Shown piece after piece: positions 1 to 8,951 of a DNA stretch of 38,312 bases. The translations under genes and the position numbers were made by a program. The stretch is from a virus. Numbering within the stretch: position 1 is the first letter of the stretch; each line of letters starts with the position of its first letter. Below the pieces are notes generated by a model. That model had not been told where the DNA came from. It saw only the letters and a program-made list of their open reading frames with translations, and did no database searches. Location of the stretch: the IMG/VR virus record IMGVR_UViG_3300028920_001368, positions 1 through 38,312 of that record. One strand, 5' to 3'.

Positions 1-2
1 TT

Positions 3-548
3 TCGATTGCTAAATTTAGAAAAGAAAGAATTGACGAGTTAGAAATATCAAACCAAACATATTTTGATAAAATTAACGAACTAACTACAAAAAACAACGA
101 ATTAGCAATCGAAAAGCAAAAACTCTCACAAAATCTTATGGAGAAAACAGCAGAGATTAAAAACCTTGAGAGCGAATTAAAGCAAATGTTGGAAATTCAA
201 AAGCAGAAACATACAAAATTTTATTTCTTCTCACCTATGGAAAAAGCTAACATGCAGAAACACAACGTAAAAAAATATGGAGTTTACTACCGAAAATTTG
301 TAAAAGTAGATGGAAAAACAATCGAATATACAACTGCTTTCGGTCCTAATGACGTAGATGTTCCACATTATTCCGATTCTGTATTAGTAACCAGAGGTGT
401 TTTTGATGAAGTAGCAATTCCTTATGATGCTCACGGACAGGAAATCAAAGATAGAGAAATTTATCAAAGCTGGATTGATGAAAGATTGAAGATGTTTGAA
501 GAAAACACCGAACCTCTGCAAGAGGGGAATGAAGAAGTGAGGGAATAA
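3..548 (+). CDS. Coiled-coil protein, 5' end cut by window edge
   Basis: The frame is open from base 3 through a stop at 546-548, so the true start lies to the left; the first internal ATG is at 138. The visible part starts with a long charged heptad-like coiled coil (roughly residues 1-65), followed by a more globular part with the motif YYRKFVKVDGK. I do not recognise the family. The C-terminus (EPLQEGNEE) is encoded by a partial copy of the dispersed CCTCT..AGAGG palindrome, and the stop overlaps the next start by one base (TAATG), so the two genes are probably translationally coupled. Confidence 0.75.
   Translation, partial: SIAKFRKERIDELEISNQTYFDKINELTTKNNELAIEKQKLSQNLMEKTAEIKNLESELKQMLEIQKQKHTKFYFFSPMEKANMQKHNVKKYGVYYRKFVKVDGKTIEYTTAFGPNDVDVPHYSDSVLVTRGVFDEVAIPYDAHGQEIKDREIYQSWIDERLKMFEENTEPLQEGNEEVRE
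503..530 (+). repeat. Dispersed palindrome type I, partial, inside the first gene
   Basis: AACACC followed by CCTCTgcaAGAGGGGAAT matches the second hairpin and flank of the type I repeat seen between the late genes. Here it is translated as the last residues of the upstream gene. Confidence 0.6.
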
Positions 549-7534: not shown

Positions 7535-7956
7535 CATTCAACAATAAACCAACATTAAAAGCTTTAGATAGCGAAGAAGAAATTATCAAACAATCATTTT
7601 CGTTCATCCACGAATATGATAAACCTTATTTTTTTCAATTTCTTGAAACATTCCAACCGGAAGAATTAAAAGCAATCTGGAAAGCTCATAGCGATATGGA
7701 AGAATTTTATGAAACTACTTTTGATTTAGAAGATTTAATTTCTGGTTATCGTGAATTTTGCAAAATCTTTAAACATACATTTCTCAAATATTCGATTCTG
7801 GACACGAAAAACTTAATTAAGAGTATTCATACAAAAAAAACAAATAAGAACGTCTCTGATAAAATTTACAGGGAAATATTGAATAAATACGATGGCACGA
7901 CTTCAACAAAAATGAATTTCATGCAACTGACGTTAGTGGAAAAGGAAATGGAATGA
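7522..7956 (+). CDS. Phage protein of unknown function
   Basis: A 144-residue acidic, helical protein inside the replication operon. It starts within the previous gene (GATAAG as weak SD) and overlaps the C5 methyltransferase start by ATGA. No motif was recognised. The tail (KEME) is encoded by the AAAAGGA SD of the next gene. Confidence 0.68.
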   Translation: MQKLTFNNKPTLKALDSEEEIIKQSFSFIHEYDKPYFFQFLETFQPEELKAIWKAHSDMEEFYETTFDLEDLISGYREFCKIFKHTFLKYSILDTKNLIKSIHTKKTNKNVSDKIYREILNKYDGTTSTKMNFMQLTLVEKEME

Positions 7957-8951
7957 AACACGCTTCATTATTTAGCGGAATTGGTGGATTTGATTTAGCA
8001 GCGGAATGGTGTGGATTTGAAAATATATTTTCCGTAGAAATAGATGAATTTTGCGATAAAGTTTTAAAAAAAAACTTTCCAAATGTAAGGAGATATTATG
8101 ACATTAAAAAATTCAATGGAAGAAAATACAGAGGAGCAATTGACATTCTTTCAGGAGGATTCCCATGCCAGCCATTTAGTGTTGCCGGGAAGCGAAAAGG
8201 CAAAAAAGATGACCGCTTCCTCTGGCAAGAAATGGATAGAGTTATCTCAGAAATTAAACCAAAATGGATTGTTATTGAAAATGTTCAGGGATTACTTACT
8301 ATCGAGCAAGGATTGGTTTTCGAGCAGGTGCTTTCTGACTTGGAAGGTAAAGGATACGAAATGGAATCGTTTGATATTCCGGCTATTGCCGTCAATGCCC
8401 CCCACAAAAGACACCGAATCTGGATTGTTGCCTACTGTAACAGTGAACGGGAATTACAACAGGAAAGGATTAAGCAAAACGAGCGGAGACGGATTGATAA
8501 CAGCAATAAATGCAGTATTACCTACACCAAGAGCTTGCGATTTAGAAGGTGGAACGGTAAAAAATGCAGAATTAAACGGTCAAAGTTTTTCACGCAAAAA
8601 CAAAGGCGGTACTCGATACGGAATAAAATTAAAGGATGCAATTTCATTGCTTCCAACTCCAACACTAAATACTTCAAAAAACTTATCAGAGAGAATCAAT
8701 TGGGATATGAGAGAGAAAAAGTATCATTTAGACGATGTTTTTATGAAACAAATTGGCATAAAAACTGGATTGAGGTTGCAACCGAACTTTGTGGAATGGA
8801 TGATGGGGTTTCCGTTGAATTGGACGGATATAAGATCACCAAAGCAAAACACCGAAGCGAAAGAATAAAATCTTTGGGAAATGCAATTGTTCCACAAGTG
8901 GCTTATCAAATTTTTATGGCAATTAAAAAAGCGGAGGCAAGCAATGAGTAA
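7953..8951 (+). CDS. DNA (cytosine-5-)-methyltransferase
   Basis: A 332-residue C5 methyltransferase. Motif I LFSGIGGFDLA (6-16), motif IV GGFPCQPFS with catalytic C72, motif VI ENV (109-111), motif VIII region PHKRHRIWIVA (150-160) and motif X GNAIVP (309-314) are all present and in order. The variable region between motifs VIII and IX (about 165-280) is unusually basic and low in hydrophobic residues. This same DNA is fully open in the +1 frame (8098-8868), and the odd composition is best explained by double coding. Likely role: protective modification of phage DNA. Confidence 0.92.
   Translation: MKHASLFSGIGGFDLAAEWCGFENIFSVEIDEFCDKVLKKNFPNVRRYYDIKKFNGRKYRGAIDILSGGFPCQPFSVAGKRKGKKDDRFLWQEMDRVISEIKPKWIVIENVQGLLTIEQGLVFEQVLSDLEGKGYEMESFDIPAIAVNAPHKRHRIWIVAYCNSERELQQERIKQNERRRIDNSNKCSITYTKSLRFRRWNGKKCRIKRSKFFTQKQRRYSIRNKIKGCNFIASNSNTKYFKKLIRENQLGYEREKVSFRRCFYETNWHKNWIEVATELCGMDDGVSVELDGYKITKAKHRSERIKSLGNAIVPQVAYQIFMAIKKAEASNE
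8098..8868 (+). CDS. Candidate overprinted gene inside C5 methyltransferase (+1 frame)
   Basis: A 256-codon ORF wholly inside the methyltransferase gene. TAAGGAG lies six bases before ATG 8098, a textbook SD that is also methyltransferase codons. The product has FQEDSHAS at 18-25, LTWKVK near 80-85, three LLPT/VLPTP segments and a C-terminal FVEWMMGFPLNWTD. From memory, many phage proteins of unknown function carry this order (FQEDS..LTWK..PTPT..WVEWLMGFP.GWT). FQEDSHAS is encoded by the bases of catalytic motif SGGFPCQ, and WMMGFP by the bases of the DDGVS segment. What the protein does is unknown. Confidence 0.55.
   Translation: MTLKNSMEENTEEQLTFFQEDSHASHLVLPGSEKAKKMTASSGKKWIELSQKLNQNGLLLKMFRDYLLSSKDWFSSRCFLTWKVKDTKWNRLIFRLLPSMPPTKDTESGLLPTVTVNGNYNRKGLSKTSGDGLITAINAVLPTPRACDLEGGTVKNAELNGQSFSRKNKGGTRYGIKLKDAISLLPTPTLNTSKNLSERINWDMREKKYHLDDVFMKQIGIKTGLRLQPNFVEWMMGFPLNWTDIRSPKQNTEAKE

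Follow-up and report, generated by a model that had tools for sequence, protein, structure and literature searches.

Two reading frames of one phage DNA segment probably encode a split C5 cytosine DNA methyltransferase

The phage locus described here is very probably a two-polypeptide (split) C5 cytosine DNA methyltransferase whose chains are read from two frames of one segment, with target recognition and motif IX on the overprinted chain. The longer chain is called alpha and the overprinted one, in the +1 frame, beta. Sequence comparison shows that beta is protein-coding and constrained and that selection acts on both frames. To our knowledge, long same-strand gene overlaps in which both products are measurably constrained are rare in prokaryotes. 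What is new here is the breadth of the arrangement, its three interchangeable architectures (nested, tandem and single-ORF), and a second phage methyltransferase family with a constrained +1 ORF.

Two reading frames in one segment

The DNA analysed, called the window, is a virus record of 38,312 bases. It has matches to integrase, DNA primase, terminase, portal and head proteins, and it comes from a tailed phage that is probably temperate. The methyltransferase locus has the following features.

7953..8951, + strand: alpha, a C5 cytosine methyltransferase ORF of 332 aa with motifs I-VIII and X (PF00145, E=2.4e-52; phrog_363, E=5.5e-77; aligns to M.HhaI over motifs I-VIII only)
8163..8180, + strand: alpha motif IV, PCQPFS, with the catalytic Cys as residue 72 (invariant in the alpha alignment)
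8403..8432, + strand: alpha motif VIII region, HKRHRIWIVA (alpha alignment; the M.HhaI match ends here)
8877..8897, + strand: alpha motif X, GNAIVPQ, 3' of the beta stop (alpha alignment; motif X pattern in 162/188 alpha tails)
8086..8092, + strand: Shine-Dalgarno sequence of beta, TAAGGAG, with a 5 nt spacer to the ATG (sequence and scan)
8098..8868, + strand: beta, an overprinted +1 ORF of 256 aa with an ATG start, the proposed target-recognition subunit (phrog_1008, E=1.1e-29; phase +1 in 191/191; silent-site constraint)
8131..8424, + strand, approximate boundary: beta N-terminal region, FQEDSHAS ... LTWK ... RLLPSMPPT, over alpha motifs IV-VIII (conserved in beta alignments; alpha 4-fold divergence 0.45 and 0.43 vs 0.65 before)
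8425..8775, + strand, approximate boundary: beta LPTP-repeat region, the proposed target-recognition region (between motifs VIII and IX, as in single-ORF relatives; beta more conserved than alpha)
8776..8826, + strand: beta motif IX, LQPNFVEWMMGFPLNWT (matched by hhalign to motif IX in a relative with a single ORF, E=3.3e-10; lowest silent-site divergence of alpha)

Alpha has the features of PF00145 as invariant alignment columns: motif I, a PCQ motif IV with the catalytic Cys, an ENV motif VI and an RxR motif VIII. The 256-codon +1 ORF within it had been reported from the letters alone, with its own Shine-Dalgarno sequence and ATG, and that description proved exact. The motifs named for it (FQEDSHAS, LTWK, LPT/LPTP repeats and FVEWMMGFPLNWTD) are likewise all there. 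In a profile search most of beta, residues 7-250, matched residues 29-286 of 329 in phrog_1008. The number of LPTP units (window 8425-8775) differs among relatives, as if the target-recognition region had grown or shrunk by repeat units. Some other matches to beta were taken as chance: Pfam Wza_C (E=0.0029), which is under the curated cut-off and 13 residues long; a pollen allergen found with phmmer (E of at least 0.23); and a T-cell receptor chain, the sole match of the beta profile among PDB sequences with hmmsearch (E=0.45).

Relatives of beta are common in phages and prophages, as expected from the earlier suggestion that it belongs to a common phage protein family. All 141 betas in the beta alignment (the window and 140/148 references, over-long ones having been removed by hand) fall in phrog_1008. 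With tblastn, beta was found in 69 phage records and 6 plasmid records, at identities below 60% in all. Profile-guided scans gave relatives in at least 503 of the 600 candidate stretches listed from viral contigs and in 337/399 candidate stretches from GTDB genomes. The overlap arrangement occurs across phages or genomes of Firmicutes, Bacteroidota, Proteobacteria and Actinobacteria. When the gene from the window was compared as DNA with E. coli genomes, no match was found.

The sequence-only reading had asked whether matches to beta always overlap a C5 methyltransferase in the same phase. They do so in 191/191 sequences (190 loci and the window), always in phase +1; this set includes duplicate loci (e.g., L116-L118 and L179-L183), and in it L097 is scored as phase +1 although the N-terminal part of its alpha is in the frame of beta. 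At 85% identity, 164/175 full-length betas are non-redundant. In L097 (2296-3222 and 2664-3305) the frame switches in mid-gene: the start of alpha runs into beta as one ORF, and the rest of alpha lies in another frame. This switch is either a natural indel or an assembly error.

Synonymous-codon shuffles of alpha carried a mean of 4.1 stops in the +1 frame and were stop-free in 1/1000. The probability of finding no +1 stop under such shuffling was below 0.05 in 176/188 loci, a set taken from the 191 sequences, with P values that are conditional on how the loci were found. The zero stops seen in the beta ORFs are themselves conditional on open ORFs, and weight is placed only on the expected numbers and the per-locus probabilities. 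Frequent +1 stops in homologous methyltransferases, which had been named as evidence against a second gene, were not seen. Stronger evidence against chance than stop shuffling comes from the same-phase homologues (191/191) together with constraint confined to the ORF.

Silent-site constraint in both frames

In phase +1 the third codon position of alpha is the second position of beta, and changes that are silent in alpha therefore alter the beta protein. For 73 disjoint pairs, the divergence of alpha at 4-fold sites was 0.674 before beta, 0.432 in the catalytic overlap, 0.496 in the TRD overlap, 0.253 in the motif IX overlap and 0.679 after beta. The catalytic overlap was less divergent than the pre-beta segment in 63/73 of these pairs (Wilcoxon p=1.7e-11), and the motif IX overlap less divergent than the N-terminus in 44/44 usable pairs. 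The same five segments gave 0.696, 0.435, 0.545, 0.251 and 0.663 in 600 overlapping pairs, which were drawn from 155/188 loci, the rest being without a motif I or VIII pattern. When the window was compared with 116 relatives, the values along alpha were 0.65, 0.45, 0.43, 0.57, 0.24 and 0.62.

In fine bins the constraint begins some 24 codons ahead of motif IV, close to the start of beta. At the other end, the divergence climbs from 0.07-0.17 over motif IX to 0.45 across the final six codons of beta and reaches 0.67-0.73 just past its stop. It had been suggested that the two frames may be fixed together, and this is clearest at the bases of motif IX, where the values over the motif contrast with those past the beta stop. 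There, codon position 1 of alpha also varies more than position 3 (0.399 vs 0.353), the signature of a +1 frame. Which product is the better conserved changes along the overlap in the window relatives. Over the catalytic part it is alpha (0.60 vs 0.43 for beta), over the TRD it is beta (0.178 vs 0.127 for alpha), and at motif IX it is again beta (0.46 vs 0.39).

Pairwise +1 identity relative to synonymous shuffles was tried as a further line of evidence and rejected. The +1 excess had a mean z of 3.37, but +2 identity was raised almost as much (2.66), and divergence at 4-fold sites was therefore used instead. With the relatives in phages and prophages, this silent-site constraint supports the claim of an overprinted second gene.

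Beta and the motif IX half of the enzyme

The canonical motif IX pattern is found in 0/188 nested alphas, compared with 71/79 canonical enzymes. A beta-type motif IX is present in beta in 170/188 loci and in alpha in 0/188, counts that are partly by construction since the loci were fetched with that motif. The stretch of alpha between motifs VIII and X is poorly conserved, and the motif X pattern is retained in the tails. Beta, on the other frame, ends in LxPxFVEWMMGFPxxWT, the spacing of which resembles canonical motif IX (LTPRECxRLxGFPD). Aligned directly to canonical enzymes, beta is placed exactly at motif IX with a score that is not significant (E=0.12), and for tandem betas the match to canonical enzymes over motifs IX to X has E=0.0086.

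The single-ORF and tandem intermediates carry the argument that beta is the other half of the enzyme, and their support is decisive. For example, Mycobacterium phage mcgavigan has a single-ORF methyltransferase with motifs I-VIII, LPTP repeats, PRLAAAFPEWMMGWPAGW and motif X in that order, and residues 168-437 of this enzyme match phrog_1008 at 4.6e-72. The beta profile aligns with motif IX of this protein (hhalign E=3.3e-10) and, over the N-terminal part, with the tandem betas (hhalign E=1.2e-16). Judged by these profile alignments, the C-terminal part of beta shares ancestry with the half of one-ORF C5 methyltransferases that carries motif IX. The 64 actinobacterial-type loci comprise 43 with one ORF, 18 with overlapping +1 ORFs, one separate in phase 0, one separate in phase +2 and one without a hit. 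A model of the single-ORF member L394 (pTM 0.76, the LPTP part being of low confidence) aligns to M.HhaI end to end (259 residues, 1..362 to 12..327), with Z 22.2 and rmsd 4.5. Beta modelled alone with AlphaFold from 141 sequences reached a pTM of 0.30, too weak to interpret. With that weak model, Foldseek gave no match in the PDB at E<=0.001 and two in BFVD at that threshold, both named methyltransferase.

The earlier description of the locus as a modification enzyme with a partner holds in that one module yields two proteins. It was loose as to the partner: the evidence, notably from the single-ORF relatives, makes this the complementary half of one enzyme and not a separate accessory.

Architecture was classed in 291/303 sequences, those with a catalytic hit. 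The beta-type motif was nested in the +1 frame in 253, in the +1 frame past the alpha stop in 13 and in the same ORF in 3; the remaining 22 had no pattern, several of them being tandem or single-ORF on inspection. Tandem forms are found in Nyxis (gp78/gp77), Camperdownii (gp76/gp75) and phiBT1. In Streptomyces phage phiBT1 (L302), the annotation describes gene 9.1 at 1026-1526 as a methylase which 'may be inactive'. A 310-codon +1 ORF at 1144-2073, to which no listed gene corresponds, overlaps and follows it and has LPTP, motif IX and motif X. Gene 58 of Escherichia phage N15 (L297) contains a nested, unannotated +1 ORF of 242 codons at 1555-2280 with matches to phrog_31772 and phrog_1008. In Mycobacterium phage Kingsley, gp71 (L299 1099-2073) is one ORF that joins the N-terminal frame of beta to motif VIII, the LPTP region, IX and X; its split point differs from that of the close relative mcgavigan.

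A stand-alone homologue of beta had also been asked for as a check. Forms partly free of the overlap, on the downstream side, and single-ORF forms were found, but none wholly free of overlap was found. The annotation of gp40/gp41 in Arthrobacter phage Orcanus shows no overlap, although the +1 ORF there is open further upstream. Among the loci examined, no two-gene form was established in which the open frames are wholly non-overlapping.

A second family has a +1 ORF over the catalytic domain, namely the streptococcal, lactococcal and clostridial-type phage C5 methyltransferases (L303-L381; L193 1652-2071; L194; L196). The streptococcal-type canonical enzymes were considered as a negative control and rejected, as they carry a constrained +1 ORF of their own and are not a clean control. 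Their frame-0 proteins have TRD, IX and X in frame 0, with canonical motif IX in 71/79. The +1 ORF has a median of 163 codons, vs 32 in the +2 frame, and typically ends near SLSDILEExVPEKYFLS; that of L193 (1652-2071) matches phrog_16143. In 64/79 loci, 4-fold divergence of alpha fell from 0.659 at the N-terminus to 0.367 where the ORF overlaps it and to 0.156 over the final 20 codons of the ORF, and stood at 0.667 beyond the ORF. A Shine-Dalgarno match of at least 5 nt precedes a +1 start in 87% of 54 loci, vs 4% in the +2 frame. This type has the overprinted region even with its TRD and motif IX in frame 0, which suggests an independent role for the N-terminal part of beta. In E. coli Dcm, comparison by eye finds a similar stretch, TLAQLLDPMVEAKYILTP, in frame after motif VIII.

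In L381 the +1 ORF continues through the TRD and canonical motifs IX and X (PF00145 at 225-323 of 324, E=1.3e-12). Residues 57-169 of L381 2059-3237, the overprinted region, match PADLOC LmuC (E=1.9e-5), a model possibly trained on a protein beside a methyltransferase.

In the window, ribosomes starting at 7953 would produce alpha, which has motifs I-VIII for SAM binding and catalysis and ends with motif X. Others would start independently at the internal ATG at 8098 and make beta in the +1 frame, internal initiation here being indicated by the Shine-Dalgarno sequence and by +1 constraint that starts far upstream of any useful frameshift point. Across the nested family a Shine-Dalgarno match of at least 5 nt is found in 36%, vs 19% in the +2 frame, a patchy and modest support (the scan covered 184 nested and 54 canonical loci). 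Beta would supply the target-recognition region, presumably its LPTP-repeat part, and motif IX (LQPNFVEWMMGFP), and the two chains may then assemble into one enzyme. Orphan phage methyltransferases are thought to modify their own phage DNA and so evade host restriction. By analogy, the assembled enzyme would most likely methylate the phage's own DNA at a specific site and thereby allow escape from host restriction.

Beta could instead be a real overprinted protein but a separate accessory, either a regulator of alpha or an anti-restriction or other factor, with alpha alone a complete methyltransferase; we consider this improbable. It would agree with the PF00145 match, which spans alpha end to end, and with the streptococcal-type +1 ORF, which is constrained despite TRD, IX and X in frame 0 and indicates that the N-terminal part of beta does more than target recognition. 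Motif IX is nevertheless absent from alpha in 188/188 loci, the TRD stretch of alpha is poorly conserved relative to that of beta, and one-ORF methyltransferases have the C-terminal half of beta as their own C-terminal half.

Slightly less probable again is programmed +1 frameshifting, in which ribosomes from alpha reach the C-terminal part of beta and the working enzyme is an alpha-beta fusion. Single-ORF fusions do exist and are common in actinobacterial phages, and the patchy Shine-Dalgarno support in the nested family would fit as well. The +1 constraint, however, begins well ahead of motif IV, far upstream of any frameshift site at which motifs IV-VIII would be retained; a strong Shine-Dalgarno sequence and an ATG are present in the window; and the nested form keeps motif X in alpha in 162/188 tails. 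That the +1 ORF is a by-product of the conservation and base composition of alpha is hardly credible. In its favour, the +1 and +2 identity excesses are nearly equal and by themselves do not discriminate, but silent-site constraint that changes sharply at both ends of the ORF, the codon-position signature at motif IX and the membership of the beta family as half of one-ORF enzymes are against it, as are the low probabilities of a stop-free +1 frame, conditional as these are on locus finding. The split enzyme remains by far the preferred reading.

Two-frame coding and known systems

On balance, two-frame coding appears to be a general design of phage C5 methyltransferases, of both the LPTP and the streptococcal types, and no rarity. 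In the course of evolution TRD, IX and X would have changed places between frame 0 and +1, as seen in the nested, tandem and single-ORF forms and in L381, where all that follows VIII is in +1. If so, many enzymes annotated as ordinary or inactive, such as N15 gp58 and phiBT1 gp9.1, would each be one of the two chains of a heterodimer, and the beta N-terminal region would be an unrecognised conserved domain of these enzymes. In phages with this arrangement usually only the first (alpha) half is annotated. A large class of phage DNA-modification enzymes would thus be half annotated, and cloning the annotated gene alone may yield an inactive enzyme. Specificity predicted from the 'TRD' of alpha would mislead, since that stretch would be a shadow of the beta frame. 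The family would also offer naturally split methyltransferases that can be tested and could be useful for targeted-methylation tools, and an evolutionary series that joins nested, tandem and single-ORF forms of one enzyme.

Paenibacillus larvae phages, e.g., Tadhana, have two overlapping genes in the same phase as in the window, both annotated as DNA-cytosine methyltransferase without comment, and the passages of the genome paper that name methyltransferases leave the overlap undiscussed (PMC6070908). A description of this methyltransferase overlap in phages was not found in the open-licence PMC literature. The matches of beta and alpha, phrog_1008 and phrog_363, respectively, are named 'DNA methyltransferase'; the library name of phrog_1008 is silent on its identity as the other half and on the other frame.

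The nearest known enzyme is M.EcoHK31I, whose smaller chain is encoded within the gene of the larger one in a different frame, and M.EaeI is a further enzyme of this kind. The passages of PMC3404938 on two-polypeptide enzymes place motifs I-VIII, X and the predicted TRD of M.EcoHK31I (YGGCCR) on its larger chain and IX on the smaller, and put both IX and X of M.AquI, a split C5 methyltransferase, on the smaller chain. As far as those passages go, the window shares with M.EcoHK31I a larger chain bearing motifs I-VIII and X and a smaller one bearing IX. It differs in that the LPTP region is in beta, whereas the TRD of M.EcoHK31I is predicted on the larger chain (PMC3404938). The phage form is also widespread, with tandem and single-ORF versions, and the likeness drawn here is one of motif layout. 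On the same description of M.AquI, the tandem phage forms (e.g., Nyxis gp78/gp77) are like that enzyme in having IX and X on the second gene, while the window is unlike it, with motif X on alpha and beta nested in another frame.
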